64,000 nt of DNA from the NCBI GenBank assembly GCA_913055805.1, contig CAJXLF010000002.1, positions 124,001 through 188,000 on the forward strand, written 5' to 3'. This document shows, piece after piece, positions 29,100 to 45,111 of the stretch (position 1 is the stretch's first letter; each line of letters begins with the position of its first letter). This DNA comes from an uncultured Salinisphaerales bacterium (lineage in GTDB: Bacteria; Pseudomonadota; Gammaproteobacteria; Nevskiales; CAJXLF01). Made by a program: the position numbers and the translations under genes. Below the pieces are notes generated by a model. It was not told the origin of the DNA, did no database searches, and saw nothing but the letters and a program-made list of their open reading frames with translations.

Positions 29100-31418
29100 T
29101 TATTGCGTGGTCTCGTACCAGACGGGCGAAGCCCAGGCACGCTCTTCAATGGTATGAAAATGCTTCTGACCACTGAAACTGCCGGGTTCGCCACTGATTA
29201 CGCAGCAACCCTCGTAGCCGCGCAGCCCGCTGTCCTGTGGAAACATACCATTGGACGCATCCAGAAGACTGCAATCGACATCGTTTTCCACATTGCACAC
29301 CCATGCACTCCATCGACAGGAAGGCACTTCACGCACCCGCGCATACCAGTAGGCATCGCGATCGCTCTGGAAATCCTCATCCACCCACACTGCACAGAAC
29401 GATGAGGGGTGCTGCCCTACCTCCACACTGCAGTCCTGCATGGAAGGGCGGCTGACCGTTTGCGAAGTCGTTACGACACCGTTGTGCACGCGCACCTTGC
29501 CTTCACCGTTGGCATCCACATAGCCCTTGATGATATCCACGCTCTGCAGGGGGTAGCCTTCCGGGTCCTGCTGGGCCCAGACGGCAAAATGCGGTTTGGC
29601 GCCTTCCACTGCCGGCGGCAGATCACCACCCATGCGCGCTCCGGCCACCTGCCCGGTGGCTATCAGATCCTCACCCGTAGCCAGTCGGTCACAGATGTTC
29701 TGCGGCAGGGGGTCCCAGGATGCAATGCTGCGGATACGCAGGCGCGGACCAGAGGTACCGAAGCTCTCGCCGCGATGAATGGCCTGCCAGATTTCGTCGC
29801 GGTTATTCTGCGGCGCCCAGACACCGGCCAGTCCACCCGGATTCAGGGTGCGGGCAAAGTCCTGGAATTTTCGATCTGTGCAGTTCGCGGGATCGGCAGG
29901 ATCACCCCCGCCACCGCAATTCCAGAAGCCCAATTGCTCTGCCGGATCATCATCCAGTACCCCTCCATGCCCCAGGAAGGGGTATTCACCGGCGTCACCG
30001 GAGTCACCGCCATGCGTATCCAGCGCCGCGGTGATATTGATCTTGTAGGGGTTCACACCCAGTGTCTGGCGAATCTTCAGACCTTCAGCCATGGCGTTAC
30101 GGTAGTAATCCAGTGGATGCGTGCAGTTACCGGTGCCGTCAGCCGAATCAGCTCCGTGCGAAGCACCATCCGGCCCGGTCTCCTCACAGACTTCCACCTG
30201 GTTACTCGGTGGCGTGCCATGCGAACAGAAGTTGGGGTCGGTCAACGGATCGCCTGTACAGAAGGCCTCGCAACTGGCTGGCTGGCCGGGCGCGCCGGTG
30301 CAAACGGATTTATTGATTTCAAAACCACAGGCCGGGTCGTAGCCCTCATCATTGGCCAGATAATCCCCTTCAAGTCCGGCCGCACATTCGGACTGCCCCT
30401 TGTGCTGAGTCATCTCAAACGAGCGATCAATGCGCTGCCGCAGGGCCGCGTCATCCGCAGTCATGGGAAAGTAGACATTGGTGAAGGGCAGCTTGCGCCC
30501 GAGCGGTACGCCTTCGAGGTCTCCAAGCACCGTGTTGCCGGCTGCTTCTCCGGCCGCCAGATACATGCGCCCGTCTGAGAGATTCGCGTTGTGCGGAATA
30601 GTCAGCACCCGGCAGCCGCTTCCCTCCGGGCATTGCAGGTTCAGCTGGTCGAACAGATCCCAATCGTCGTTACCGTTCTCCGGCAGGAGCGGTGTTGTCG
30701 GATTGACTGAACTGATGACATTCAGTGGCGCGCTTTCCGTAGGCCCATTGAAGATCACATTACGGTGGAACATCTGCGAGCTTTCCTGCGAAGTGTATTC
30801 ATAGCCATGCAACGTCGTGTAGCTGCAGGGTTCATACTCCTCATCGTTCATCTGTTTGGTCAGCGACCAGGCCGCAATCGTGCTGGGCAGGGATGACGCC
30901 ACGCTTTGCAGTACCTGGGTCTGGAACGGCGTCTCGCCGGCCGCAATCTGAACCACATCATCGCGTATACCCTGACCGATCAGCTGATCGCAGAGCGCCT
31001 GGGTCTGTTCGCTGTTATCGCAGAACAGGAAGAAACCACCCAGGAATTCCGCGTGATCGGTCACCGCATTGAAATCCAGCGGGCGATCGATGGTGATTTC
31101 GCGACCGACATTGAAAACGTCGTCACTGCCCAGTGCCGGCTGCGGCAGCGGCGCTGCGCCCTTGGCAAAACGGTGGGCGGCGCGCGGATCCGTCAGCGCA
31201 TTGAAGAAGTAGGCATCCAGTGAATAACTGGTATGGGTGTGCAGATCCCCGAAATAAACATTCTTGTAGCCCGGCTGATAATCGCTGCAATGCCCCGCAA
31301 CCGGTTCAGGTTCCGGAGAAGCGGCCTGGCCGCCGGCGACCGGCTCATCGTTCGAGCCGCCACAGGCCACCAACACCAATAGACCAAACATCACGACCAG
31401 ACGACCGGGCAAGAACAT
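29100..31418 (-). CDS. DUF3604 PHP-like lipoprotein (cassette 1)
   Basis: I place the start at the ATG at 31418: it overlaps the HupE-like stop as TGATG and has GGGGTG upstream; 31430 is an alternative. The 772-residue protein has a lipobox LVAC with Cys19. The metal-type motifs GDLHTHTSYSLDA and AVTDHAEFLGG resemble PHP phosphoesterase motifs and define DUF3604. Many cysteine pairs suggest disulfides outside the cytoplasm. It is the last gene of an operon with a prolyl isomerase and a HupE-like protein. Its paralogue is at 37400-39679. Substrate unknown. Confidence 0.8.
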   Translation of the reverse strand: MFLPGRLVVMFGLLVLVACGGSNDEPVAGGQAASPEPEPVAGHCSDYQPGYKNVYFGDLHTHTSYSLDAYFFNALTDPRAAHRFAKGAAPLPQPALGSDDVFNVGREITIDRPLDFNAVTDHAEFLGGFFLFCDNSEQTQALCDQLIGQGIRDDVVQIAAGETPFQTQVLQSVASSLPSTIAAWSLTKQMNDEEYEPCSYTTLHGYEYTSQESSQMFHRNVIFNGPTESAPLNVISSVNPTTPLLPENGNDDWDLFDQLNLQCPEGSGCRVLTIPHNANLSDGRMYLAAGEAAGNTVLGDLEGVPLGRKLPFTNVYFPMTADDAALRQRIDRSFEMTQHKGQSECAAGLEGDYLANDEGYDPACGFEINKSVCTGAPGQPASCEAFCTGDPLTDPNFCSHGTPPSNQVEVCEETGPDGASHGADSADGTGNCTHPLDYYRNAMAEGLKIRQTLGVNPYKINITAALDTHGGDSGDAGEYPFLGHGGVLDDDPAEQLGFWNCGGGGDPADPANCTDRKFQDFARTLNPGGLAGVWAPQNNRDEIWQAIHRGESFGTSGPRLRIRSIASWDPLPQNICDRLATGEDLIATGQVAGARMGGDLPPAVEGAKPHFAVWAQQDPEGYPLQSVDIIKGYVDANGEGKVRVHNGVVTTSQTVSRPSMQDCSVEVGQHPSSFCAVWVDEDFQSDRDAYWYARVREVPSCRWSAWVCNVENDVDCSLLDASNGMFPQDSGLRGYEGCCVISGEPGSFSGQKHFHTIEERAWASPVWYETTQ

Positions 31419-32461
31419 CAGACACCCCATCCGGTCAGCACCGGCTGTAAACGATCAATAAACCAGTACGCCGATATCACTCCCAACAGCGTGACCATGC
31501 CCACAGGCATTCGGGCTGACAGCTGTGCAACGCCGGGGAAGTTCACACGCAGCATGCGCGGCAGCTGCATCATCAGCAATACGGCTGTCACGAACAGCAG
31601 TTGCCCGGCCTCGACACCCAGGTTGAACAACAGTAATGCCCAGCCCCGGGCCTGCTCCGGCAGGCCTATGTCGCTCAGTGCCCCCGCAAATCCGAACCCG
31701 TGCAGCAAACCGAACAGCAAGGCCACCACCGCGGGGAATCGCAAGCTGAGACCCGGCGTTGCCTCTGGCGTCATACGGTGCCTGGCCAGTTCAACGGCCA
31801 GCAGCAGAATACTCAGGGCGATACAGGCCTCCACCACGGCCGCCGATAATTGCAACCCGGCCAGCATGGACAGCGCCAGCGTCAGGCTATGCGCAAGAGT
31901 AAAGGCGGTCACTACCGTCAACAACGAACGCCAGCCGCCTTGCCGTGCCCGGATCACCAGGAGCAGACAGAGCACAAACAGTAGATGATCAATGCCCGAC
32001 AGGATATGCAGGATCCCCATGGGGAAATAACCGGCCAGGCCGAGGCTCGTCGGGTTTTCCTGCATCTGTCCAAACTGCAGCCACGGCTGGCGGAGGTCCA
32101 GTAATGCAACCTGCTGTTGCCCTGTCGCATAACGTACTGTTATTACCGCATCCGGCATGGCGGGACCCAGTCCCGTAAGTTGCAGGCGCCGGCCCGACAG
32201 CCCCCCTTCACAATGCATCTGCCAGTATCGCAACATCTGCTCGCCGAGATATTCGGTTCGTGCAGTGCCGAGAGATTCACAGACAGGCAACAGGGTAACG
32301 ATGGCATTGCGCGCCTGATCACCCTGACCCAGACCGGTTTTCAATACCGCCTGAATCCGTCCGTCGGGATATTCTTCCAGATTGAGCGCCAGCGCTTTCA
32401 ACTGGTGCGCCGCCGCGGCAGCCGGCAGCAACAGGCCCAGCAGCAGCAACAAACTGCGCAT
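31418..32461 (-). CDS. HupE/UreJ-like membrane protein (cassette 1)
   Basis: The 347-residue protein has a signal peptide ending near AAAAAH, a periplasmic domain (about 20-150) and six or more membrane helices. The membrane half contains GILHILSGIDHLLFV, LLHGFGFAGALSDIG and LFNLGVEAGQ, motifs shared with the HupE/UreJ family, whose founding members are linked to nickel uptake. A metal or ion role is therefore possible but unproven. Start and stop both overlap neighbours by TGATG, so translation of the three cassette genes is coupled. Confidence 0.8.
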   Translation of the reverse strand: MRSLLLLLGLLLPAAAAAHQLKALALNLEEYPDGRIQAVLKTGLGQGDQARNAIVTLLPVCESLGTARTEYLGEQMLRYWQMHCEGGLSGRRLQLTGLGPAMPDAVITVRYATGQQQVALLDLRQPWLQFGQMQENPTSLGLAGYFPMGILHILSGIDHLLFVLCLLLVIRARQGGWRSLLTVVTAFTLAHSLTLALSMLAGLQLSAAVVEACIALSILLLAVELARHRMTPEATPGLSLRFPAVVALLFGLLHGFGFAGALSDIGLPEQARGWALLLFNLGVEAGQLLFVTAVLLMMQLPRMLRVNFPGVAQLSARMPVGMVTLLGVISAYWFIDRLQPVLTGWGV

Positions 32462-33324
32462 CAGCCTGCCTCCTGCCCTGAGCGGCTTTCAAATTCGATG
32501 CTGAAGCGTTGCCGCAGGCGCTGCATGGCCGTGGCATTGGCCTGCTCACGCTGATGGCTGCGCCAGTCACTGGCGACCCGCTCACGCACCTCGGCCAGGC
32601 GCGCGGCCTGACCTGCTTCTCGCCCGGTCACCCGAACAAGATGCAGACCCAGCCCCGAGCGTATGGGTCCACTCCAGACCGCTTGCGGGAGATCACGCAA
32701 ATCTTCGGCAAAGCCGGCTCCGAATTCACGGCGCAAGGTTTCAGAGTCGGCCGCAAGAATTACCTGGCCCGCCGGGAATACATCGCCCAGACCCGAAAAG
32801 GCCTCCGGATCCTGCGCCAGCTGATCCTGTGCTTGTGCAAGCTGGTCCACGACTTGCGAAGGACTGGCGCCGCGGCTGAAGAAAACCTGCTCAAAGCTTA
32901 TGTGTTGCGCATGACTGTAACGTTCGGCATGGGTCTCCAGCCAGGCCTGTAACTGAGCTTCGCTTGGCTCGGGGACGGGCATCGCATCCGTGAGCAGAAA
33001 ACGCATTTTCTGCACCATCTGCCTCTGCACAATGCTGTCTTTCTGGTCCAGCCCCAACGCCAGCGCTTCGCGATAAAGCATCTGCTCGTCCAGCCAGCGC
33101 TGCAGACGTGCATCCAGTTCATTGTCATTCGGCATGCGCCCCTGCTCCGCCTGAAACGCGGCGCGCAGCACGTCGAGCTGCTGCGTGGTGACATGAATAC
33201 GGTAATGGTCGGTGGGCGGTACGGGTTCACGCAAGCTGCTGTCGAGCAGAAAAATCAGTCCGCCAAGCAGCAGGAATTGCAATAAAGGTTCGCGCAACCA
33301 GCGCTTTAACCACGCCCGTCTCAT
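32461..33324 (-). CDS. Parvulin-type peptidyl-prolyl isomerase, membrane-anchored (cassette 1)
   Basis: From the ATG at 33324 (ATGA overlap with the upstream gene) the protein has 287 residues. One N-terminal membrane helix (LLQFLLLGGLIFLLDSS) is followed by a SurA/PpiD-like helical part and a rotamase domain (about 150-245) with HISFEQVFFS, FSGLGDVFPAG and GPIRSGLGLHLVRVT. It probably acts outside the cytoplasm on a product of the same operon, most likely the DUF3604 lipoprotein. The paralogue at 40860-41723 has the same neighbours. Confidence 0.82.
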   Translation of the reverse strand: MRRAWLKRWLREPLLQFLLLGGLIFLLDSSLREPVPPTDHYRIHVTTQQLDVLRAAFQAEQGRMPNDNELDARLQRWLDEQMLYREALALGLDQKDSIVQRQMVQKMRFLLTDAMPVPEPSEAQLQAWLETHAERYSHAQHISFEQVFFSRGASPSQVVDQLAQAQDQLAQDPEAFSGLGDVFPAGQVILAADSETLRREFGAGFAEDLRDLPQAVWSGPIRSGLGLHLVRVTGREAGQAARLAEVRERVASDWRSHQREQANATAMQRLRQRFSIEFESRSGQEAG

Positions 33325-34193
33325 CGGCTGTACTCGGCCGCCGGTGATGTACACCAGACCAGTGTGCGCTGCAGACCTGCGTCCCGATGTTCCAGGGCGG
33401 CCTGATAACGCGGATTGGAAATCATATGCGTAAATTGCTGCCGCCCGGGATACTCAATGACCGCTATCTCGTCCCAGTGATTACCCTCTGTCTGGCCATC
33501 ATTACCGACCAGGGTAAAACGATAACGACCCAGAGTGACGATACGCCCGCCCAGGCGCAGAAAGCAGTCCATGGCCACGCGGCCATAGCCATCTTCATAG
33601 GCCCGTCGTCCGCTGCGGTTGCGCTCGCCTTCAACGTATTGCGCACGCTCATGGAACTTCAGCAGATTGAACATATGGATCGGCTGCTGCGGCCCTTCCT
33701 CCTGGAAAAAGGCCAGTTGCTGCGGCGTGGGATTAATCCCGCCCTGCAACAACTCTGCGGGCAGATGATCGCCCGACCTGGGCGCAGGCAGCCAGGGCAG
33801 AACGCGATTCAGCCAGCGGATTATCCTGGCCATGCGTGGCGGCGGTGGTGTGGCAACGACGATCTCCAGATCACTTGCGACACGACACAGGCGCTCGAAC
33901 AGTTCGGATGCCAGGTGGGCCTCCACCTCGGCAGGGCCGGAGAATTCAAGCAGCCAGATTTCCGACCATCGTTTGTCTGCCTCTCCAATGGCCAGTGCTT
34001 CAACCGTCGCTACGCTGAGGCAATGTGGCGGCTGGCGCCGCAGGATTGCCCTCGCCTCGGTTATGGTCTGTTGGCTGTCGGCCGAATTCAGCCATCGCCA
34101 GTGATACTGCAACAGCAAGGGGCGCCCTGCCGGCAAAGCCAGCAGGGCTTTCATTTGCTGATTGCTGGGTAGTAAGTGCGTCTCCTGCCCCAT
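33321..34193 (-). CDS. Tandem DUF1330-like (dimeric alpha/beta barrel) protein
   Basis: The 290-residue protein has a C-terminal half (about 165-280) with MFNLLKFHERAQY, GGRIVTLGRYRF, WDEIAVIEYPGRQQF and MISNPRYQAALEHRDAGLQRT, which fits DUF1330-type ferredoxin-like barrels. The N-terminal half has a weaker related pattern (WSEIWLLEFSGPAEVEAHL), so I read it as two tandem domains. Function unknown; related proteins occur near catabolic genes. First gene of the cassette 1 operon and divergent from a TetR gene. Confidence 0.6.
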   Translation of the reverse strand: MGQETHLLPSNQQMKALLALPAGRPLLLQYHWRWLNSADSQQTITEARAILRRQPPHCLSVATVEALAIGEADKRWSEIWLLEFSGPAEVEAHLASELFERLCRVASDLEIVVATPPPPRMARIIRWLNRVLPWLPAPRSGDHLPAELLQGGINPTPQQLAFFQEEGPQQPIHMFNLLKFHERAQYVEGERNRSGRRAYEDGYGRVAMDCFLRLGGRIVTLGRYRFTLVGNDGQTEGNHWDEIAVIEYPGRQQFTHMISNPRYQAALEHRDAGLQRTLVWCTSPAAEYSR

Positions 34194-34220
34194 ACCCTCA
34201 TTCCCGTTACTTTCATTCGC

Positions 34221-34248
34221 AATCTAGCAAATATTTACATATTGTCAA
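34221..34248 (-). promoter_or_regulatory. Sigma-70 promoter for the cassette 1 operon
   Basis: On the minus strand a perfect TTGACA (34248-34243) is followed after 16 bases by TAGATT (34226-34221). It lies 28 bases upstream of the DUF1330-like start. It overlaps a possible plus-strand promoter for the TetR gene, so one bound regulator could control both directions. Confidence 0.6.
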
Positions 34249-34262
34249 CTTTTGGTCATGAT
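34234..34262 (+). promoter_or_regulatory. Candidate promoter for the TetR gene
   Basis: TTTACA (34234-34239), 17 bases, CATGAT (34257-34262). Each hexamer is an incomplete match, so this is tentative. The predicted start lies about 20 bases before the TetR ATG. The stretch AATATTTACA here recurs as ATATTTACA in the other divergent spacer at 36014-36022. Confidence 0.35.
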
Positions 34263-34289
34263 AGGCTTCACGCACGCACAGGAAGGCCC

Positions 34290-34934
34290 ATGCCATACAG
34301 TAAAACCAAAACCGGCAAACGTCCCTACATGGCGCGTGAAAAACGCCGCCAGATGCTGCTGGACACTGCCGCCGGGATCGTGGAACAGGACGGCTGGGAC
34401 AAGCTCAGCATGAGCGCGTTGGCGCAGGCCAGTCACGGCAGCCGTCAGCTGATCTATCAGCACTTTGAGTCTCTTGAAGACCTTATGGTGGCGACGGGCA
34501 CGCACATCTTCGAGCAGGTTTACCTGCGTACCCGCGATACCATTGAGCACCGGCAGCAGGACATCATCACTGTGCTGGGTCAGGCACAGAGCATCACGCT
34601 GGATCTGCCGCCCGGCCGCGCGCGCGCGCTGTGGCAGGTGATTGCCTCGGCCTTCCCTGCCGACCATGAACTCACGCGTTTTGGTCGCCGCATGCGGCAT
34701 CTGATCACCAAGCTATGGCAACCAACCGTGGCCGAAGCTTTTCTCCTGGACGATGAACAGGCGGCCACTGTCACCTGGATGCTGATCATGGCGTTCTGGG
34801 GCGGCTACCGGCTGGTGGAAGATGGCGAACTGACCAAGGCACAGGCGATTGAACGCCTGAACTGGATCGTCCGCACGCTGGAAGCTGGCGTCAACCGGAC
34901 GGACAGCCGCGCTAAAGCAGCTCGCGCACACTGA
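34290..34934 (+). CDS. TetR-family transcriptional regulator
   Basis: The ATG at 34290 has GGAAGG 4 bases upstream and gives 214 residues; an upstream frame from 34176 runs through the promoter region and is rejected. The N-terminal helix-turn-helix (about 20-65) reads RQMLLDTAAGIVEQDGWDKL then SMSALAQASHGSRQLIYQHF. The C-terminal ligand domain is not recognisable to a subfamily. It is divergent from the cassette 1 operon and likely controls it. Its 3' end overlaps the convergent hydrolase gene by 23 bases. Confidence 0.9.
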   Translation: MPYSKTKTGKRPYMAREKRRQMLLDTAAGIVEQDGWDKLSMSALAQASHGSRQLIYQHFESLEDLMVATGTHIFEQVYLRTRDTIEHRQQDIITVLGQAQSITLDLPPGRARALWQVIASAFPADHELTRFGRRMRHLITKLWQPTVAEAFLLDDEQAATVTWMLIMAFWGGYRLVEDGELTKAQAIERLNWIVRTLEAGVNRTDSRAKAARAH

Positions 34935-35985
34935 TTTCATCACTGCCTTCCGGCAGGCTGATCAAGGTCCCGTCGCGCCCCAGGGTGTACTTCCCTGAAT
35001 AGGCATCACTTACGCCTCGCACAAACAACCATTCCAGCGGCTTGACCGGCAGTGGCGGTATCAGGTGATAAAACAGCAAGTGCCTGACCCCTGCCTGCTC
35101 GGCAATTTCCGCCGCCTGCACCGGCGTGGTGTGATAACTGAGTATGTCTTCTGTGATCCTGTGAATATTCGGCATACCCACGTTAGCGGCTGCACGGCCC
35201 AGGATTTCGACAATTTCCGGCGCAAGCGCCTCATGCGCCAGCAGATCGACGTCCTCTGAAAACAGCTGCAGATTTTCCGAGGCACTGGTATCCCCGCTGA
35301 TCACCAGACTGCGCCCCTTGTAGTCAAACCGGTAACCCACCGCTTCTTGCACCGGCTCATGTGGTACGGCGAAGGCAGTGACAGTAAGACCGTGGTGATT
35401 CAGCACTTCAACCGCTTCTGCCTCGCCCGGCCGCGTGAAGGGCTTTGCCAACCCGCCTGCACCGCTGCGCGGAACCACCGCTTCACCATGATGTGCGATG
35501 CGGTGCTCAACATCCTGCCGGTAGGCCAGGTTGTAGCCCTGCACCACTTGCTCGACCCCGGAAGGACCATATACGGGTAATGGCTCGGTACGGGCGCCCC
35601 CCGCCCAGCGCACCGTCATCAATTCACCCAGGCCGTCAAAATGGTCGGAATGAAAATGGGTCAGAAACAGGCCTTCGATACGGCCCGGCGGTATGCCCAT
35701 GAGTCCGAAATTGCGGGCCGCTCCGGAGCCAATATCCACCACATAGAGGTCGTTGCCCGCCAGCACCATTATGCAGGGACCGGCACGTTCGGGATCCGCC
35801 AGGGGCGCACCTGACCCGCAAAGCAGAAGGTGCAAGCCATCGGGCAGCGTATTCAACACCTGCCCGGACAGGTTACGTTCAACCTGCTTCTGCACCACAG
35901 TCATCAACAAGCGGTCACCCAACAGAAACACTGCAACGGCCACCAGCAACAGACAGGCGCCTGCTGAAATCACTATTCGCTTCAC
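34912..35985 (-). CDS. Metallo-beta-lactamase-fold hydrolase, membrane-anchored
   Basis: I chose the GTG at 35985 (357 residues) because GGGGGAG lies 6 bases upstream and the hydrophobic anchor (ISAGACLLLVAVAVFLLG) then starts the protein. The MBL core has FLTHFHSDHFDGLGEL, VISGDTS, and a late His in LLFYHLIPP, an RNase Z/arylsulfatase-like arrangement. The active site probably faces the periplasm. Substrate unknown. Convergent with the TetR gene (23-base overlap) and divergent from the isomerase-like fusion. Confidence 0.8.
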   Translation of the reverse strand: MKRIVISAGACLLLVAVAVFLLGDRLLMTVVQKQVERNLSGQVLNTLPDGLHLLLCGSGAPLADPERAGPCIMVLAGNDLYVVDIGSGAARNFGLMGIPPGRIEGLFLTHFHSDHFDGLGELMTVRWAGGARTEPLPVYGPSGVEQVVQGYNLAYRQDVEHRIAHHGEAVVPRSGAGGLAKPFTRPGEAEAVEVLNHHGLTVTAFAVPHEPVQEAVGYRFDYKGRSLVISGDTSASENLQLFSEDVDLLAHEALAPEIVEILGRAAANVGMPNIHRITEDILSYHTTPVQAAEIAEQAGVRHLLFYHLIPPLPVKPLEWLFVRGVSDAYSGKYTLGRDGTLISLPEGSDEISVRELL

Positions 35986-36013
35986 TGCACTCCCCCAGGC
36001 AAACAACTGCCAG

Positions 36014-36051
36014 ATATTTACAGTGTGTATACTTTCGTATATCTGTGTCAA
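36014..36051. promoter_or_regulatory. Divergent promoter region with an inverted repeat (possible operator)
   Basis: The centre is TATAC-tttc-GTATA (36028-36041), 5-bp arms. TATACT (36028-36033) could serve as a plus-strand -10, and TTGACA on the minus strand (36051-36046) as a -35 for the hydrolase gene. ATATTTACA (36014-36022) is shared with the promoter region of the TetR gene. Binding by that TetR protein is a guess from these features. Confidence 0.35.
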
Positions 36052-36087
36052 GATAGCCATGGGAGAAACCCGGGGAGAGAAAAGAAC

Positions 36088-37395
36088 ATGAGGCAAGCAC
36101 CCAAGCCCAGTCGTAAATCGGCAGTTGCGCTACGCATTGCCCATTCACGCGGCCCTATCAACAAACTGCGCGCACGGCGGCTGGGGATGGACATCCTGCT
36201 GCACCGCCCGCCCGTACTGGAGTTGTACTACGAGTCAGGTGACCCGCACTCACATCTCTGCCTGCAAAGCCTGAGCCGCTGGAAGTCACGCCTTGGGGTA
36301 GAAGTGCAGGCATACATCGTGCCGCCGCCCCGCGCCGAAGCCTATCCGGAGTCTGAAAAACAACGATCATTTGCCCTGGCTGACGCCCGGTACGTCGCCC
36401 CCGCCTGGGGACTGCAGTTCCCGGAAAACGCACAAACAGCCAATGCCGATGATGCCTGCCTGGCCGCGCGTCTCCTGCTGGCCTGCAAGGACATCAACTG
36501 TCTGCTGGAAAAAGAACCGGCCGTTGCCGGCGCTCTATTCAGCCGTGACAGCAAGGCCCTGGAACGCATGCTGTCGGAAAGCGAAGCACTGGATGAACGC
36601 AGTGCGAATTTGCGGCTGGCGGCTAACGAAAACCGCAGAAACCATCTCGGTCATTACCTGCCCGGTATGTGGCAATTTAATGGGGAGTGGTTCTGGGCAC
36701 TGGATCGCCTGCATCAGCTGGAATCGAGATTGCGTGACTTCAACGCCCTGCAGGGCGAACTACCCCTGGCTGTGGCCAATGCCACAAAGGCACGCTTGCC
36801 AGCGATACCTGGCGACAAGCCGGTGCTGGAATTCTTTTTCAGCTTCCGCAGTCCCTACTCCTATCTCGCGGCGATGCAGGTGCGGGACAAACATGCCAAA
36901 TGGCCTGCAGAACTGCGTATACGACCCGTGTTACCCATGGCCATGCGCGGGCTGCCTGTACCTCTTGAGAAGCGTCTGTATATCGTCCGTGACGTCAAGC
37001 GCGAAGCGGATAGCCTGGGCATTCCATTCGGTCGCATCGCTGACCCTATCGGCGCCGGCGCGGAGCGCTGCCTGAGCCTGTTCCCGCTCGCCCAGGGTGT
37101 GGAGCAGCAATTGGCCTATCTGACTGCCGCTGCAACTGCCATATGGTCACAGGGTGTGGACGTGGCCACCGATAAGGGCCTCGCCTATGTCTGCGACCAG
37201 GCAGGACTGGACTGGGCGGCCGCCCGACAACGTCTGCAGGGCGCTCCCGACCTCGGCTACGCCGAGGAAAATCGCCGGGCGATGTTCGAGGCCGGCTTAT
37301 GGGGCGTGCCAAGTTTCAGACTTGGCAAGTTCGCCACCTGGGGCCGCGACCGCCTGTGGATGGTCGAGGAGGTGCTGCGCCGGGGCTCTGACTAA
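36088..37395 (+). CDS. Tandem DsbA-like/2-hydroxychromene-2-carboxylate isomerase-like fusion
   Basis: The ATG at 36088 has GGGGAGAG upstream; 435 residues. Two thioredoxin-fold domains of the DsbA/HCCA-isomerase (GST-kappa) family occur in tandem. Each begins with a related strand: PPVLELYYESGDPHSHLCLQ (about residue 45) and KPVLEFFFSFRSPYSYLAAM (about 245). The second has the full family pattern, including the late segment GVPSFRLGKFATWGRDRLWM. The first domain is more diverged (DPHSH in place of SPYSY). Single-domain relatives isomerise polyaromatic intermediates with glutathione. Substrate here is unknown. Confidence 0.75.
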   Translation: MRQAPKPSRKSAVALRIAHSRGPINKLRARRLGMDILLHRPPVLELYYESGDPHSHLCLQSLSRWKSRLGVEVQAYIVPPPRAEAYPESEKQRSFALADARYVAPAWGLQFPENAQTANADDACLAARLLLACKDINCLLEKEPAVAGALFSRDSKALERMLSESEALDERSANLRLAANENRRNHLGHYLPGMWQFNGEWFWALDRLHQLESRLRDFNALQGELPLAVANATKARLPAIPGDKPVLEFFFSFRSPYSYLAAMQVRDKHAKWPAELRIRPVLPMAMRGLPVPLEKRLYIVRDVKREADSLGIPFGRIADPIGAGAERCLSLFPLAQGVEQQLAYLTAAATAIWSQGVDVATDKGLAYVCDQAGLDWAAARQRLQGAPDLGYAEENRRAMFEAGLWGVPSFRLGKFATWGRDRLWMVEEVLRRGSD

Positions 37396-37399
37396 CCCA

Positions 37400-39679
37400 C
37401 TAGCCGCCGTAATCCACGAAAATCGGCGAAGACCAGGCGCGTTCGGCCGCCGGCGCCAGGCAGTCATCCTCCAGGTCCGTACGCTCATCGCCGTAACAGA
37501 TGTCGACTTTCGTGCAGTTGCCCTGCTCGTCATACTCGCAGCGTAGCTGGTCGGCATTGATGGTCGGGCTGGGTGCCTGGATGGCGCGCACGTAATACAG
37601 CGTGTCGCGCGCTTCGTCGCCAAAGTTCTCGTCCTCGAATTCCACGACACAACCCGCTGAATCACCGTCGCAGGGCAGTACCTTCCAGGGATCCTCTATC
37701 AGATCACCGATATCCTCGCCGGGTTCAGCCTGAGGCTGGATACGCACCACTTCCACGCGCTCGATCACCTTGCGCGTATCCGAGGGATTATAGCATTCAC
37801 CGCCACACATGTAGTCCAGACGTTCTTCGCCGAGCGCATCAATACTGTGCGGTGGACAACCCGGCTTCTGCTCAAAAGCACCTACCGCCCTCACCCGGAA
37901 TTTCGGCGCCTTTTTCATGACAACCTCGGAACCCATAGGCAGCTCTGATTCACTGCCGTTGAGCAGATCGAACCACAACAGCATGCGGTCACCCGAGGTG
38001 CCGTAGACCTCCTTGCGCTGCATGGCATCCCACACGGCCTCACGCTGCCTGCCGGCACTATGCACGGCAACCAGACCGCCGGTATAGAAGTAGGAACCCA
38101 GACGCTCGGACTCTGCATACTGGAACAGATTGTAGTGCGTGTTTTTGCGATCAAAGGGTATGGATTCGGCACCCTCTTCCTTATTGGAGGCCTTGCGTTT
38201 GGCCTTGTCGCTGAAGTTCTGCCGGGTGGACTCATCCGCCGGCCCGAAGGTCTCGGTATTCTTGTGCCGGCCGGTCTCCTTGTAACCGGTGCCCGGCTGG
38301 GACGCATGGTTGTCGCTGGAGGCGATAAAGCCGAACCTGAAACGCTGCGGCTTTTCGTTGCCGTCCTCATCCGTGACCGGCTCGTCGAAATTGGACAGCG
38401 CCATGATGTACTGCACCGAGTTGCCCGGGCGGTAATTCAACGCCGGCAGGTAACAGTCAGTGCACTGGCCACAGTTGAGCCAGTCCTCGGGTTGGGTATC
38501 GGGAATGACCAGGTGCCCGGCGACACTGGCATCCAGGTAATCCAGCTCGGCCTTGTCGACACGGGTCTGGCATTCATTCGAGGCCGGGTCGTCACAACGC
38601 TCACGGATAATTTCGCCCGCCCGATGACAACACGGCAGATAGCCATCGCTTGGCTCCGGGCATTGCATGTTACCGTCGACGTCGTATTCAACAGCACGCC
38701 AGTCCCGGTACTCTTCGGAATTGCCGTGCCCCGACATCACCTCGATGAGCTTCTGATACTGCGTATTGTTGTGCTGCTCCGTGAGCTGCTTGTCCCATTT
38801 CACCCCGGGTGGTGTGTAATAGCCCCAGCTCGTGCCGTGTGGGATGGCCAGCACCTCGCCACCCCACTGATCCAGCTTGGTCCACAGTGCCTCGGGCGTC
38901 TCGGCCGATTCCACGCAATCCGCCGGCAGATCCTTCACATGCACACCGTCCGGACACAGGGTAGTTTCGCGCAGTTCCGCCTGCTTGGCGAACTGGTCCT
39001 TGAGGCGCTTGCGGTTGTCGAAGTCCGACACATAGGGCGCCAGCGCCTGCTCGACCGGACTCAGCACCTGGCGTCGCATGTGCTTGAGCGGCAGGCCACC
39101 GGAAGTAACGGGCCGCACCGGCACCTTGTCCTCTTCGGTTTCCAGCAGCACTACATTGCGATGCCCGTAATGGTTTTCCGGCGTCTGGCCCACCTGGGTC
39201 CATTCCCAACCCAGGAAGGTCACCAGGTCCGGATCGGCCGGGTCGGTGACGGCATTACACTGGCGCACCATGTCCTTGATCATGCCCCAGTGCCGCGGCG
39301 TCATGGCCTCGGCATGGTCGGTGAGGCTCCAGAAATCCAGGTCCGAGCAGTAACGGGCATAGTCACAGGCATCGGCCGGGGGATGCACGCCCTCGCCGTT
39401 CATGATCGGCAGGCTCCACAGGAAGGCATCCATTGAGAAAGTGCTGTGCACATGCAGGTCTCCGAACAGAATCTGCTTCTCGGGAGGTTCCGTTGCCAGG
39501 ATGGCGGCGGCGGCCTGCTGGCGGGTCTGGCGTTTGTTCACCCAGGCCTTGGGCAGTGCTTCGCCCTGGATTTCGCCGTCCTGCTCTACTTCGCCCTTCA
39601 CATCGAAAAGGGCGAAACCCGCAACCACGAGGACCAGCGCCAGGGCCAGTACCAGCAGCAATTTCAGGATGATCCTCAT
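37400..39679 (-). CDS. DUF3604 PHP-like protein, membrane-anchored (cassette 2)
   Basis: The ATG at 39679 is preceded by GGGAGGAG; 759 residues. An N-terminal hydrophobic helix (IILKLLLVLALALVLVVAG) replaces the lipobox of the paralogue. The family motifs GDLHVHSTFSMDAFLW and WSLTDHAEAMTPRHW are conserved, and Cys pairs are frequent (CDYARYC, CGQCTDC). It is the last gene of the second isomerase/HupE/DUF3604 set and ends 4 bases from the convergent fusion gene. The enzymatic role is unknown; PHP-like motifs suggest a metal-dependent hydrolase. Confidence 0.8.
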   Translation of the reverse strand: MRIILKLLLVLALALVLVVAGFALFDVKGEVEQDGEIQGEALPKAWVNKRQTRQQAAAAILATEPPEKQILFGDLHVHSTFSMDAFLWSLPIMNGEGVHPPADACDYARYCSDLDFWSLTDHAEAMTPRHWGMIKDMVRQCNAVTDPADPDLVTFLGWEWTQVGQTPENHYGHRNVVLLETEEDKVPVRPVTSGGLPLKHMRRQVLSPVEQALAPYVSDFDNRKRLKDQFAKQAELRETTLCPDGVHVKDLPADCVESAETPEALWTKLDQWGGEVLAIPHGTSWGYYTPPGVKWDKQLTEQHNNTQYQKLIEVMSGHGNSEEYRDWRAVEYDVDGNMQCPEPSDGYLPCCHRAGEIIRERCDDPASNECQTRVDKAELDYLDASVAGHLVIPDTQPEDWLNCGQCTDCYLPALNYRPGNSVQYIMALSNFDEPVTDEDGNEKPQRFRFGFIASSDNHASQPGTGYKETGRHKNTETFGPADESTRQNFSDKAKRKASNKEEGAESIPFDRKNTHYNLFQYAESERLGSYFYTGGLVAVHSAGRQREAVWDAMQRKEVYGTSGDRMLLWFDLLNGSESELPMGSEVVMKKAPKFRVRAVGAFEQKPGCPPHSIDALGEERLDYMCGGECYNPSDTRKVIERVEVVRIQPQAEPGEDIGDLIEDPWKVLPCDGDSAGCVVEFEDENFGDEARDTLYYVRAIQAPSPTINADQLRCEYDEQGNCTKVDICYGDERTDLEDDCLAPAAERAWSSPIFVDYGG

Positions 39680-39693
39680 ATCTCCTCCCGCCC

Positions 39694-40863
39694 TCAGGCC
39701 AATGCTCTTGTTATAAACCAGAATGTACCTAAACCGGCGATGGCTGTCGTGCCCAGCTGCTCGACCGGCAGTCGACGGCTCAACCCCCGCAACAGCGGCC
39801 ACAACACCACCACGACCACGAGCTGGCCGCATTCAACGCCGAGATTGAAGCCGAACAATGCCGTCAGCAGCCGCTCTTCGGGCAAGGCCATTTCAGCCAG
39901 AATGCCGGCAAAGCCGAAGCCGTGAAACAGGCCGAACGCAAAGACGATCAGCAGACGCCAGCGCACTGCGTGCGCGCTGATGGTTAACAGACGGAAATAG
40001 GCAGCAACAAACACGGCCACGCCCAGCAACGCCAACGCCGGCAGGCCGGGCGCGCCCAGCCCGGCCAGCGCCAGCAGAATGACACAGGCCAGCGCCGGCA
40101 ACAGCAGCGGCTTGCCGCTGCGCTCCCAGGTGTTTTCCAGTGCCACCAGCAGAATCGACAAACCGATAAGCGCTTCCACCGCCGAGGATACGGGTTGCAC
40201 CTGACCCAGGGCCGCCAATGCCAGGGTGATGCTGTGGGCAAGGGTGAAACCGGTCACCAGCCAGGCCAGCTGTGTGAGACTGCCGGCCAGCAGCAACAGG
40301 CCGAACACGAACGCCAGGTGATCCCAGCCGGAAAGAATATGCTCGATGCCCAGCCACCAGTAGCTGCCCAGTGATTGCGGCGCTTGCGGTAATGCCTCAG
40401 CACCCGCGAACGCCCAGTGATTATCGGTTTCCGTCAACACCTTTTCCGCTACGCCGCCCTGGCCGTCGCGTACTGTGACGAAATGCATATGCGCAGACAC
40501 AGCATCCAGCAGCAGCTGGCTGCGGATCATTAGCCGGTCCTGCTGCGGACAGCTGGGCTGGCCACTCACGCGTACCCAGCCATCAGTATTCAGATGCACT
40601 TCCCGCAGCTGCAGGTCACAGGCCTGGCCGTCTGCTGTCAACACCAACCGCTCACGCACCAGCTGCCGCACACGCGCCTGATAATCATCGCTATAGGCCG
40701 GATGCAGCTGCAGGCGGGTCAGGTCATATTGGTTGATGCGTACCGTCAGTAGCCAGGGCTCGTTGTCCAGCTCCCACAGTGAATAGGAATAGCTGCGAGT
40801 ATGGGCCTGCGCCGCACCCGCCCACAGTGTGAGCAGTAGCAGCGCCAGCCAGACAGGCTTCAC
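39694..40863 (-). CDS. HupE/UreJ-like membrane protein (cassette 2)
   Basis: The 389-residue paralogue of the protein at 31418-32461. A signal peptide (LALLLLTLWAGAAQAH) is followed by a periplasmic domain (about 20-170) and a multi-helix membrane half. Conserved motifs are GIEHILSGWDHLAFVFG, LFHGFGFAGILAEMA and GFNLGVECGQ. The His and Asp residues in H-ILSG-DH are the same in both copies, which suggests a functional, perhaps metal-binding, site. It overlaps the upstream isomerase gene by ATGA. Confidence 0.8.
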   Translation of the reverse strand: MKPVWLALLLLTLWAGAAQAHTRSYSYSLWELDNEPWLLTVRINQYDLTRLQLHPAYSDDYQARVRQLVRERLVLTADGQACDLQLREVHLNTDGWVRVSGQPSCPQQDRLMIRSQLLLDAVSAHMHFVTVRDGQGGVAEKVLTETDNHWAFAGAEALPQAPQSLGSYWWLGIEHILSGWDHLAFVFGLLLLAGSLTQLAWLVTGFTLAHSITLALAALGQVQPVSSAVEALIGLSILLVALENTWERSGKPLLLPALACVILLALAGLGAPGLPALALLGVAVFVAAYFRLLTISAHAVRWRLLIVFAFGLFHGFGFAGILAEMALPEERLLTALFGFNLGVECGQLVVVVVLWPLLRGLSRRLPVEQLGTTAIAGLGTFWFITRALA

Positions 40864-41723
40864 TGCAGCGCCTCACGAATCTCGATGGACTCAGTACGGC
40901 GCAGTTCATCCAGGGACTTGCGCAGCATGTCCTCCGAGGCCCGGCGGCGCATTTCCGCCAGCACCAGCTCGCGGACCTCCTCGAAACTCACCTCAGGCGC
41001 GGCGTTGCGTTCATGCAAATAAAGCAGTTGCCAGGCCTTGCCTACCAGCAGGGGTTCGGAAACTTCACCCGGCGCTAAAGCCACGGCGCGGTCCGCCATG
41101 CCGGGACCGAGATAATCCACCAGCTTGCTGTACGGCAACGGCGTATTGGGCAGGTTGAGCGCCCCGCCTTCATGAAACGTCGCCTGCACCGCAGCAAAGG
41201 CCTCACCGTCCGCCAGTCGCCGGCGGGCCGTGTCCGCCCGGGCCTGTGCCTGTTCGAGGCTGCGGGTATCCGTCGCGGGTATGCGAATCAGCCCCACGCG
41301 GCTGCGTGCCGAACCGCTGAACAACACCCGATTGTCGTTATAAAACCGGCGCGCCTCATCCTCGCTGATTTCGCGGGCCTCCGCGGCCAGGCTCTTGGCC
41401 TGCAACACCGCCTGAACCAGGGTGGATTTCACCCGCGGGTCGCTGCGCATCAGCCCCTGGCGTACGCCATACTGGATCAGCAGCTCCTCATCAATGAGGC
41501 GCTCCAGAATATGCCGGCGGTCCTCTTCGGTCAGCGGATTGCGCTTGTCGGCATCCACCGCGCCCAGGGCCCGCTCATAGGCGGCGACGGTGATATAGCG
41601 GTCATTCACACGGGCGACCGTGCCCTCCGGCAACCCGGGCTGCTGCTCGAGAATGCTGTAAAGGGCCGCGCCCAGGCCCACAAGAATGCCCGTTAAAACA
41701 AATAGTATTTCTTTATTTATCAT
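40860..41723 (-). CDS. Parvulin-type peptidyl-prolyl isomerase, membrane-anchored (cassette 2)
   Basis: The 287-residue protein has an N-terminal helix (ILFVLTGILVGLGAALYSIL), a SurA-like helical part with RVNDRYITVAAYERALG, and a rotamase-like domain (about 145-245: VGLIRIPATDTRS, YLGPGMADRAVALAPGEVSE, WQLLYLHERNAAPEVSFEEV in part). No ribosome-binding site is visible; the start codon lies in the loop of a 9-bp AT-rich inverted repeat. It parallels the isomerase of cassette 1, though the two differ considerably. Confidence 0.75.
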   Translation of the reverse strand: MINKEILFVLTGILVGLGAALYSILEQQPGLPEGTVARVNDRYITVAAYERALGAVDADKRNPLTEEDRRHILERLIDEELLIQYGVRQGLMRSDPRVKSTLVQAVLQAKSLAAEAREISEDEARRFYNDNRVLFSGSARSRVGLIRIPATDTRSLEQAQARADTARRRLADGEAFAAVQATFHEGGALNLPNTPLPYSKLVDYLGPGMADRAVALAPGEVSEPLLVGKAWQLLYLHERNAAPEVSFEEVRELVLAEMRRRASEDMLRKSLDELRRTESIEIREALQ

Positions 41724-41753: not shown

Positions 41754-43220
41754 TCACGGCGCGGGCAACAGTCCCAGATAAAGACCCTCCTGCCCGCTAT
41801 CCAGTGTTTCCTGCAGACAGGCGGCAAAAATGACGGCCGGCTCGCTACCCGCCGCCTCGAAGGTCTCGCGACTGCAGTAGGCGCCAACCGGCAGATATTC
41901 ACCCATCACCTCCACCGGGTCCGTGCCCTTGGGTACATTCTGGATCGCCTGGGCAAAATGCGCCGAAGGCAGCATATGCCGGTAGATCAGCAGGCCATCC
42001 GGGAACGGCCCCCAGGGCAGCCAGTTGATATGGTTCTCCGCCACAGCATTCAGCGGCCGGTCGGCCGTATCCGAGACCACCACGGTGAAATAGCCTTGGC
42101 CATCCAGTTCGGCCTGGTAGTCCGCCGTACAGGCGACATAGCGCTGGGTCACGAATTCGTTCTGACACACCGACCAGTAACGCAGGTCTTCCATGCCGCC
42201 GGCCAGGCGCGGATCGCCGGGATAGCTGGGCGCCTTGCCGCGCAGCAGGAAGATATTGCCGTCGTTACGGGAAAAGCCGGTTGAGGTATAGGCATTGTGG
42301 ATGTTGGACAGAAAGCCGCCGCCATCACCCAACGGCACGTTCTGTTCCACTTCGGGCGGCAAAGGCACCGGCAACGCATTGCTGAGGATCGCCACCGCGG
42401 TCGGCCCGAGTCCATAGAACACCCGAGTGCTAGGTGGATAGGCCGCTGTGGGAAAACGGATGACGCCGAATTCTTCAGGGAAATCGATGGTCAGCAGCAA
42501 GTCATTGAGGCCGGGATCCGGCAGGTTGCCACCCAGTGACGGCAGCAGCGGTACGTCGCAGTCGGCGAACGGCAGCAGTTCGGTTTTTCCATCAGCCGTT
42601 TCCAGCGTGAGCAGCGGCAGACCTGCGCCACCGTCAAAACCCAGTCCCTCTGCCGGCACATAGCTGCGGTAAATAATGGCGGTAAGCAGCGGATTGGGCA
42701 CCGCCTGCCCGTTGATCTGCGTCTGCCCCGCATAAATGGTATTCGGCGCGGGCTCATCCGGTCTGGCGGCAAATTCCACATAGGCCGTGTATGCACCGCC
42801 CGGCGCTGCCGCTGTATCCGCAAAGGGATTGGCGCTGCCGGCATCCGGCTGCAATTCAATATCGGCGATGGCGTCCACTGGCCGCAGCAGCGGATCGTAA
42901 ACGTTGTAGGAGAAATAGCGCAGGTCGGGGTATCGACCGTTGATACGCAAGCGCGTTTGCGGCAGCTGCGGAATCAGGGCCACCCAGTACTGCGCCGATT
43001 CGTCCGGAAACGCCACATTGGTGGTGTTGATATCGGAAACGAACTGCCAGCCGCAGCCGAGACCGGCCGGCACTGTGGCGCGATCGCTGCTGCCCGCCTC
43101 AGGCGCGGGCGCCTGGACAGCACTGCCCTGTCCGCGCTGCGAGAAATCATCCGCATTGTCGCCCCCGCAGGCGGCGAGCCCGGCGAGAACCAGCATTATC
43201 CCCTTACGCCACATGCTCAT
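41754..43220 (-). CDS. Lipoprotein of unknown function
   Basis: The ATG at 43220 overlaps the upstream stop by ATGA and gives 488 residues. A lipobox LAAC puts the modified Cys at position 18. The mature protein starts with a Gly/Asp-rich linker, then a domain with WQFVSDINTTNVAFPDESAQ, RINGRYPDLRYFSYNVYD and PADTIADIEL-like text (seen as VDAIADIELQPDAGS). I do not recognise the family. Its place between an alkylsulfatase-like gene and the isomerase suggests an envelope role in the same pathway. Confidence 0.65.
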   Translation of the reverse strand: MSMWRKGIMLVLAGLAACGGDNADDFSQRGQGSAVQAPAPEAGSSDRATVPAGLGCGWQFVSDINTTNVAFPDESAQYWVALIPQLPQTRLRINGRYPDLRYFSYNVYDPLLRPVDAIADIELQPDAGSANPFADTAAAPGGAYTAYVEFAARPDEPAPNTIYAGQTQINGQAVPNPLLTAIIYRSYVPAEGLGFDGGAGLPLLTLETADGKTELLPFADCDVPLLPSLGGNLPDPGLNDLLLTIDFPEEFGVIRFPTAAYPPSTRVFYGLGPTAVAILSNALPVPLPPEVEQNVPLGDGGGFLSNIHNAYTSTGFSRNDGNIFLLRGKAPSYPGDPRLAGGMEDLRYWSVCQNEFVTQRYVACTADYQAELDGQGYFTVVVSDTADRPLNAVAENHINWLPWGPFPDGLLIYRHMLPSAHFAQAIQNVPKGTDPVEVMGEYLPVGAYCSRETFEAAGSEPAVIFAACLQETLDSGQEGLYLGLLPAP

Positions 43221-45028
43221 TCTCCAAGGCCCAGGGTGGCCAGCGGCGCCGGCTCGGGCGTCTCGCGCACCGGCTTGAACAGCAGCATGAATTTGGCAAA
43301 GGCGATACGGCCGCCCTGCTCGAACTCCATCTGCGTCATGGCCGAGGCCGGATTGATAATGCGCCCCAGCATCTTCTTCCACACCAGCGCCTCGACCTTG
43401 AGGTGCATATCCAGATCGTCGAGCAGCATAGGCACCACTTCGGCCACGCCACGCCGCACCCAGATGGTCCAGTTTTCGCCGGTGTCGGTGAAACTGATGC
43501 CCACGCGGGTATTCATATCCAACGCATCCTCGGCGCGCAGGTTGGTGGCCAGCGCGTTCATCACCGCGTCCAGCGGCAGGCTGCGGATCATGTCGTCCGA
43601 TCCCGAGGCGATGGGCCGGAAACGCAGGCCCTCACGCAGTTCCAGGGCGCTCATCAGATAGTAGTGGCGAGCATTGGGATTGCTGGCCGCTTCGCCCAGA
43701 CGGGTCAGGGCCGTAATGCGCGCCTCCCTGGCTTCCCCGTCTTCAGGCGCCAGGCGCAAGGCCCAGTCGGATAGCTGCAGTGCCCACTGGTATTCACTCG
43801 CATCCACGGCGTCTGTCATCTGCTGCTTGAGTTTGCCCAGACCACCGGCCAGGTCGGCCATCTTTTCCGCCTCTTCGCGAGGCGGCAACGGATTAAGCGT
43901 GGCGGGATTACCGTCAAACCAGCCCAGATTACCGGTGAATACCGAACGCGCCGACCAGGCAACTGTGCCGTAGAACTCCTGCAGGTAGGGCTCGCTGGCG
44001 AGATGTGGCGGCAACTTCACCTTTTCGATGATTTCATCCGGTGTCAGACCCGCATTCATCCAACGCACGGTCTGGTCGTATACAAAACGGATGGCGTCGC
44101 GATAATTGGTCAGTACGCGCTGAATTTCATCCGCGCCATGCAGCGGCCGGGTGTGGCTGGGCGCAATATGCTCAACCGGCAACATCCGCATCTTGTCCAG
44201 GCTGGCCGCCCAGTCCTTCAGGGAGCGGTAAGGCGTGCCGCGGATGGTATAGAGATTCGGAAAGGTCTTGTAGAGGTTATCGCCCACTGCCAGCACCTGG
44301 CGCTCCGGTAGCCAGATAAACAGCTGGTCGTTGGTTTCACCCGGCGCATGCACCAGCTTCAGCTTGACGCCGGCCACGGTAGTTTCCAGTTCCCTGTCCA
44401 CGGTTTGCGTGGGTTTGATGAAACCGAAACCGGAGTTTTCGTTGATGGACAGACGCGGCCCGATGCCGTCATTCACCAGGCCGGCTTCATCCAGATGGGT
44501 GCCGAACATGCGGAAGGAACGCGCGGTGATGATCGGCCGGTACTCGGACACGATGCGGTTCACGTAATACTCGGTGGTTTCATGCGCGAAGACTTCCACC
44601 GGCGTATCGTCCTGCGCCAGTATGTCCACGAAGGCTTGCGCGCCGAAAACATGATCGGTGTGGTTGTGGGTATAGATGATCGCCTTGAGCGGCTTGTCCG
44701 ACAGCTTGCGGAACTCGGCGGCCACCACACGCCCCTCTTCCAGCGTCTCCAGGGTGTCGATCACGATCAGGCCATCGTCGCCCTCGATCAGGATGGAGTT
44801 GGCCAGGCCGTAGCCGATGGCGATCCACACGCCTTCGGTGATCTGCTCAATGCCCTTCTCGAATTCCTGCGTATGCGCGTGCAGGTCCTCGGGCGTCGTG
44901 ATCTGTTCGAAACCGGTATCCGCCTGCTGGCCACACCCGGTCAGCGCCCACAGCACGCCGATGGCGCACAGGCTCGGGTATAGTTTGCCCAATACCTTGA
45001 AAATCCTTCTGAACAAGCCCCTGAACAT
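43217..45028 (-). CDS. Alkyl/aryl-sulfatase family metallo-hydrolase, lipoprotein
   Basis: The ATG at 45028 has GGGAGGAG upstream; 603 residues. Lipobox LTGC with Cys32. The MBL core has THNHTDH at residues 120-126 (the SdsA1 family has THSHADH-type sequence), HAPGETNDQ and PSHTRPLHG. The central part FYGTVAWSARSVFTGNLGWF with DGNP matches the alkylsulfatase dimerisation domain, and the C-terminus is SCP2-like. Family members hydrolyse primary or secondary alkyl sulfates. The outer-membrane lipoprotein location is unusual. First gene of the five-gene cassette 2 operon. Confidence 0.82.
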   Translation of the reverse strand: MFRGLFRRIFKVLGKLYPSLCAIGVLWALTGCGQQADTGFEQITTPEDLHAHTQEFEKGIEQITEGVWIAIGYGLANSILIEGDDGLIVIDTLETLEEGRVVAAEFRKLSDKPLKAIIYTHNHTDHVFGAQAFVDILAQDDTPVEVFAHETTEYYVNRIVSEYRPIITARSFRMFGTHLDEAGLVNDGIGPRLSINENSGFGFIKPTQTVDRELETTVAGVKLKLVHAPGETNDQLFIWLPERQVLAVGDNLYKTFPNLYTIRGTPYRSLKDWAASLDKMRMLPVEHIAPSHTRPLHGADEIQRVLTNYRDAIRFVYDQTVRWMNAGLTPDEIIEKVKLPPHLASEPYLQEFYGTVAWSARSVFTGNLGWFDGNPATLNPLPPREEAEKMADLAGGLGKLKQQMTDAVDASEYQWALQLSDWALRLAPEDGEAREARITALTRLGEAASNPNARHYYLMSALELREGLRFRPIASGSDDMIRSLPLDAVMNALATNLRAEDALDMNTRVGISFTDTGENWTIWVRRGVAEVVPMLLDDLDMHLKVEALVWKKMLGRIINPASAMTQMEFEQGGRIAFAKFMLLFKPVRETPEPAPLATLGLGE

Positions 45029-45111
45029 GGAATACTCCTCCCGCATCTGTATAGCTTTAATTTATCGATACCCAGCATGTCAGTCTGGTCTTTAAACGCC
45101 AAGTTTTGGTC

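Follow-up and report, generated by a model that had tools for sequence, protein, structure and literature searches.

The list of open reading frames in the window, the whole 64,000-nucleotide stretch of DNA from an uncultured Salinisphaerales bacterium analysed here, contains two minus-strand sets of three genes encoding a parvulin isomerase (PPI), a HupE/UreJ-like membrane protein (HUP) and a DUF3604 protein. All six genes fall within positions 29100-41723, and about 4.0 kb separates the two sets. The first consists of PPI copy 1 (32461-33354; Pfam PF13145 Rotamase_2, E = 6e−13), HUP copy 1 (31418-32461; PF13795 HupE_UreJ_2, E = 6e−44) and DUF3604 copy 1 (29100-31418; PF12228, E = 7e−114). 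The second consists of PPI copy 2 (40860-41723; PF13145 Rotamase_2, E = 4e−13, and SurA_N_3, E = 2e−6), HUP copy 2 (39694-40863; PF13795 HupE_UreJ_2, E = 1e−41) and DUF3604 copy 2 (37400-39679; PF12228, E = 1e−27). The two sets are present in the same order as the initial annotation had described them, and Pfam supports all six genes. NCBIfam gave no name for any DUF3604 or HUP protein in the window.

The coupled starts that had been proposed for both sets are also found. PPI and HUP overlap by 1 nt in copy 1 and by 4 nt in copy 2. DUF3604 copy 1 likely starts at ATG 31418, in a TGATG overlap with the HUP stop at 31420-31416 (an alternative ATG lies at 31430), and DUF3604 copy 2 likely starts at ATG 39679, 14 nt past the HUP stop and preceded by a Shine-Dalgarno-like ggaggaga. 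PPI copy 1 starts at GTG 33354, with an alternative ATG at about 33324. The motifs noticed earlier are kept in both copies, namely HILSGIDH and LLHGFGFAG in HUP copy 1, HILSGWDH and LFHGFGFAG in HUP copy 2, GDLHTH and GDLHVH in DUF3604 copies 1 and 2, respectively, and TDHAE in both DUF3604 proteins.

The initial annotation called this a duplicated cassette. Two sets do lie side by side, but the word is misleading as the copies are distant and belong to different lineages: identity between them is 36% (local) for HUP, 25% (local) for PPI and about 21% for DUF3604. DUF3604 copy 1 shares up to 65% identity with one set of loci (L083, L101, L085) and DUF3604 copy 2 up to 67% with another (L107, L108, L103). 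A recent tandem duplication is ruled out by the 21-36% identity and by each copy being orthologous to a separate cassette type in Nevskiales-like genomes. We refer to the copy 1 cassette as type B and to the copy 2 cassette as type C; the two occur together within one stretch of DNA in several further genomes (L092, L093, L095, L097, L099). A third, more distant cassette, which we call type A, is found on another contig (C4) of the window's genome, with its genes arranged as DUF3604-PPI-HUP (L069:1834-17161).

Predicted features of the three proteins

We know of no reaction assigned to the DUF3604 family. From its sequence and model, copy 1 is predicted to carry a lipoprotein-like signal (MFLPGRLVVMFGLLVLVAC), a PHP-fold metallohydrolase domain and a C-terminal beta-sandwich, while copy 2 appears to be a divergent PHP-type protein with an N-terminal membrane segment and no lipobox. 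The AlphaFold2 model of copy 1 (pLDDT 85.5, pTM 0.89) was assigned to the PHP fold by running VIA-align over candidates from Foldseek; Foldseek by itself returned nothing below E = 0.001 for this model. The best matches were the PHP structures 3e38 (Z = 15.2 over 234 residues) and 2anu (Z = 14.1), and ten PHP proteins in all scored between Z = 8.3 and 15.2 (3e38, 2anu, 7rty, 7k30, 5zb8, 3o0f, 3e0f, 2yb1, 9etk, 7ug9). They were followed by the PHP domains of DNA polymerases (Z = 6.3-7.3), with the next non-PHP entries at about 3.9. A PDB sequence search with DUF3604, by single sequence and by profile, gave no match.

Ten residues (H64, H66, D72, H126, E211, H222, H280, E339, D471 and H473, counted from the 31430 start) are invariant in alignments of 30 cassette-type and 49 wider sequences, both of which include both window copies. 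Most of these are presumably the PHP metal ligands, given what is generally known of PHP enzymes. The PHP-like metal motifs recognized in the initial annotation are thus borne out, with HxH, H, E, H, H and DxH invariant in both alignments and a predicted PHP fold around them. PHP metallohydrolases such as 3e38, 2anu and 2yb1 share this fold and ligand pattern, but DUF3604 differs from the solved PHP metallohydrolases in being exported, in its length of about 600-780 residues and in its large inserts. On this combined evidence we predict that DUF3604 proteins are exported, adopt the PHP fold and have the full set of metal-ligand motifs.

The CehA/McbA carbamate hydrolases (NF038032) are, like DUF3604, a PHP-like family. 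The DUF3604 protein of cassette 3 weakly matches NF038032 at the HxH...TDH region (E = 0.005; 16.4 bits against a cut-off of 80), and a search of NF038032 with the two window copies gave no match. Profile alignment of DUF3604 with a CehA-like protein at another locus (L208) was not significant and was limited to the HxH motif, and we do not claim common descent for the two.

HUP copy 1 is predicted to have a signal peptide, a mature protein starting with His1 (PAAAAA|HQLK), a beta-sandwich at about residues 19-133 and then the HupE_UreJ_2 membrane domain. HUP copy 2 likewise has a signal peptide, a mature His1 (GAAQA|HTRS), a metal-binding-type N-domain and a HupE_UreJ_2 domain with a long insert. 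An AxA|H pattern at the predicted cleavage site, cleavage being assigned by pattern only, is found in both window HUPs and in nearly all HUPs scanned. Seven residues (H152, D158, H159, H191, E211, H254 and E284) are invariant in the HUP alignment. PDB sequence searches with HUP, single and profile, gave no match, and the N-domain of the copy 1 model (pLDDT 86.8) matched ZrgA (8f1b, Z = 11.4), PA4063 (7bgo, Z = 11.3) and Ang-1 (9gce, Z = 8.3). ZrgA and PA4063 bind Zn and Ang-1 binds Cu and Ni, with a Kd of 74 nM for Cu and 220 nM for Ni (PMC12537917).

The anglerase HupE/UreJ-2 protein Ang-1 (PMC12537917; PDB 9GCE) has the same make-up as HUP, with a His1 and an Ig-like metal-binding domain joined to HupE_UreJ_2, although the HUP N-domain is structurally nearer to ZrgA and PA4063 than to Ang-1. 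The gene neighbours described for anglerases are DUF4198, IndA-like and PfkB proteins, and the isomerase and DUF3604 are absent from the main text of that paper (PMC12537917). In common with the canonical HupE nickel permease, HUP opens its membrane domain with an HX5DH motif and has a family-level Pfam match; it differs from that permease in its additional metal-binding N-domain. No hydrogenase or urease genes were noticed around the cassettes. Structure prediction and motifs together support HUP as a metal-handling membrane protein.

PPI copy 1 resembles a membrane-anchored SurA/PpiC-type parvulin and PPI copy 2 a SurA/PpiD-type parvulin, the latter with HP0175 and SurA as solved relatives. 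Rotamase_2 is recognized in both, and conservation in the PPI alignment is low. The C-terminal parvulin His found in most other cassette PPIs is missing from type C, including PPI copy 2.

Linkage across genomes

Among 85 genomes of the order, HUP lies within 7 kb of DUF3604 at 62 of 71 DUF3604 places, the reverse count being DUF3604 within 7 kb at 56 of 144 HUP places. The DUF3604 loci of the order that we examined carry PPI in 40 of 41 cases, HUP in 36 of 41 and the full trio in 36 of 41. At least four gene orders occur (DUF-PPI-HUP, PPI-HUP-DUF, a divergent DUF/PPI-HUP, and PPI-DUF without HUP), and since the linkage is kept despite this rearrangement it points to functional coupling and not to one inherited arrangement. 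In a sample of 299 Pseudomonadota genomes, HUP lies within 4 kb of DUF3604 in 16 of the 18 genomes that confidently bear DUF3604 (the window's genome left out) and at 20 of 27 places, and the two families co-occur with a Fisher p of 1e−11. The trio recurs in other phyla too. Given its recurrence in the order and in these phyla, the arrangement is far beyond chance. No gene fusions between the DUF3604, HUP and PPI families were found. One DUF3604 match beside a HUP gene (G246:C12:456051-456335) is confined to a short frame interrupted by TGA and is likely a decayed copy.

The concern raised in the initial annotation, that DUF3604 genes might mostly be found without the other two families, does not apply in the order or among the Pseudomonadota genomes, but it does apply to cross-phylum loci: of the 53 (out of 80 named, from many phyla) flanked by 4 kb or more on each side, PPI is present at 21 and both partners at 18. 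At many DUF3604 loci both partners are absent from the vicinity, and some solitary DUF3604 genes have no PPI. This is largely because some genomes hold many DUF3604 genes and one to five HUPs; 27 of 28 genomes chosen for holding unlinked DUF3604 have HUP somewhere. DUF3604 reaches a dozen or more genes per genome in OM60-type and deltaproteobacterial lineages. Counting listed full-length places, as raw HMM matches are stretches, there are at least 19 in Candidatus Litorirhabdus (G387) and at least 12 in HTCC2148 (G395), the latter with one HUP, and other genomes (reached from L125 and L156) likewise combine large DUF3604 expansions with few HUPs. At several loci one PPI-HUP pair accompanies multiple DUF3604 genes, with three at L153, five at L185, six at L188 and three detected at L213, so a single pair probably suffices for several DUF3604 enzymes.

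Where a HUP locus includes an exported PHP enzyme, PPI is always there too (68 of 68), whereas HUP loci lacking such an enzyme never have it (0 of 38). Both sets are samples in which related genomes recur, so a p value for this contrast, which presumes independent loci, overstates its strength. Further, at two loci (L200:2504-6852 and L208:6147-12738) the PPI-HUP pair adjoins not DUF3604 but an exported CehA/McbA-like PHP protein, recognized with a weak score. Together with the tracking of PPI, these loci are the best clue to the pair serving exported PHP enzymes. HUP itself is not specific to such enzymes, since there is a second conserved HUP partnership, in which paralogues without PPI have genes for an exported DUF4331 protein and a TPR protein as neighbours (L195, L196, L197, L199, L203-L207 and L246).

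These same counts bear on how the three proteins are coupled. One alternative is that DUF3604 has its real partner in PPI, a dedicated foldase, and that HUP is in the operon to serve routine metal uptake or homeostasis and takes no part in metallating the enzyme. DUF3604 loci with HUP but without PPI number 0 and those with PPI but without HUP number 9 (some of them near contig ends), as this alternative would have it. Two near-complete Nevskiales-like genomes (G058 and G020) retain PPI-DUF3604 with HupE_UreJ_2 genes absent from the entire genome, and two others (G206 and G385) have DUF3604 and no HUP. These four genomes contradict a strict dependence of DUF3604 on HUP. However, in almost all trios HUP immediately follows PPI, and PPI is missing from all 38 HUP loci that lack a PHP enzyme. 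Distances between partners co-vary (Mantel r = 0.74-0.85, n = 63), most strongly for PPI and HUP (r = 0.85), values that still include shared species history. With this tie between PPI and HUP, we consider the foldase-only alternative unlikely, while giving it real weight.

Neighbouring genes and possible substrates

Between the two cassettes lie genes for a metallo-beta-lactamase (MBL)-fold protein with an N-terminal membrane segment (34912-36096, minus strand; PF12706, E = 4e−15) and for a two-domain DsbA/HCCA-isomerase-like protein (36025-37395, plus strand; PF01323, E = 1e−22). Relatives of the former, at 42-56% identity, are found at 17 of 120 DUF3604 loci, near type B and C cassettes, and it is possibly a fourth component; the latter recurs at 14 of 120. 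Just upstream of cassette 2, a lipoprotein-like gene without a Pfam match (41754-43382) has relatives at 9 other DUF3604 loci, and an alkyl-sulfatase-like MBL protein (43217-45046) that adjoins this cassette has relatives at 8 others. The window also encodes a 986-residue protein with cadherin/Ig-like repeats and a Laminin_G_3 domain (46589-49549). Overall, the neighbours of B and C cassettes include the MBL protein, the DsbA-like protein, glutathione transferases, an SDR and the alkyl-sulfatase-like protein.

Type A cassettes have a different setting. Genes resembling hsaD, E, F and G adjoin 14 of 14 type A loci, and the only two KshA_C matches in the window's own genome are both near cassette 3, with DUF1329 and P450 genes farther out. 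From these hsaDEFG-like and KshA-like genes, cassette 3 appears to be surrounded by a steroid catabolic cluster. DUF3604 is found in the Hydrocarboniphaga and OM60 groups, for which a comparative study predicted steroid degradation (PMC4810484); we found nothing relevant in the literature on a Sinimarinibacterium steroid cluster. As cassettes B and C in the window lie outside a steroid-type cluster, a steroid substrate for copies 1 and 2 is a guess.

This setting raises a second alternative, in which the trio is a catabolic neighbourhood and HUP moves an organic substrate or product of DUF3604, so that the linkage would reflect a shared substrate and not maturation. The 14 type A loci and the KshA-like genes beside cassette 3 agree with it, as do the Rieske, FMO, GST and MFS genes at the Litorirhabdus locus. 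We nevertheless consider it quite improbable, as HUPs of all types keep the metal-type residues (His1, HX5DH, H191, E211 and H254) and the PPI-HUP pair is constant while the catabolic neighbours vary. A third alternative is a scavenging system, in which HUP imports a metal and DUF3604 releases it, or some other nutrient, from a complex outside the cell. Metal capture and assimilation have been proposed for the anglerase HupE proteins described in 2025 (PMC12537917), which would suit such a role. Yet the large DUF3604 expansions and the catabolic neighbours better match a catabolic repertoire, and metal-uptake regulators or receptors are not prominent among recurrent neighbours, making scavenging a very remote prospect.

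A possible folding and metal-handling pair

Rather, we hypothesize that PPI and HUP form a folding and metal-handling pair for the exported PHP hydrolase DUF3604 at the cell envelope, a reading for and against which we place about equal weight. DUF3604 would be exported as a PHP-fold metallohydrolase and served by the membrane-resident PPI and HUP. The membrane-anchored parvulin/SurA-type PPI most likely aids folding of the large exported DUF3604 chain. HUP would be an anglerase-type protein combining a His-first periplasmic metal-binding domain with a HupE/UreJ-2 permease-like domain, and its most likely task is the capture or transport of the transition metal on which DUF3604 depends; that it delivers the metal, which metal this is and in which direction it moves are our inferences. 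DUF3604 itself probably cleaves ester- or amide-like bonds at the cell envelope, and its substrates may be hydrophobic compounds, for instance steroid-like ones. The export signals, the PHP fold with its ligand set, the domain make-up of HUP and the conserved linkage, on which this reading builds, are seen in sequence or structure prediction.

The initial annotation had likewise suggested that the isomerase folds the exported DUF3604 protein and that the HupE-like protein supplies metal or passage for it. What stands of this is the predicted exported PHP fold with ligand motifs, a HUP that looks metal-handling by structure and motifs, and a PPI that tracks the exported enzyme; the absence of HUP from G058 and G020 speaks against HUP being needed. 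Nickel is at most a candidate for the metal, as Ang-1 prefers Cu over Ni and ZrgA and PA4063 bind Zn. The loss of the usual parvulin His from PPI copy 2, as judged by alignment, would also count against a folding pair. The HupE proteins known so far bring nickel into the cytoplasm, so loading of a periplasmic enzyme would not be straightforward and would need either capture outside or export.

We found no description of the PPI-HUP-DUF3604 trio in the open-licence papers searched. In its broadest form, our proposal is that PPI-HUP constitutes a dedicated extracytoplasmic folding-and-metallation pathway, in which marine and soil bacteria may use one pair for a whole set of DUF3604 hydrolases, as many as tens of them, that take the first step in degrading hydrophobic organic matter, steroid-like compounds included. 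This extension is tentative, and we hold it to be rather doubtful. How exported metalloenzymes acquire their metal outside the cytoplasm is poorly understood, and a conserved pair of chaperone and metal protein devoted to a single enzyme fold would make a model amenable to study. Such a model would give a lead to the function of DUF3604 and a link to steroid-type catabolism.
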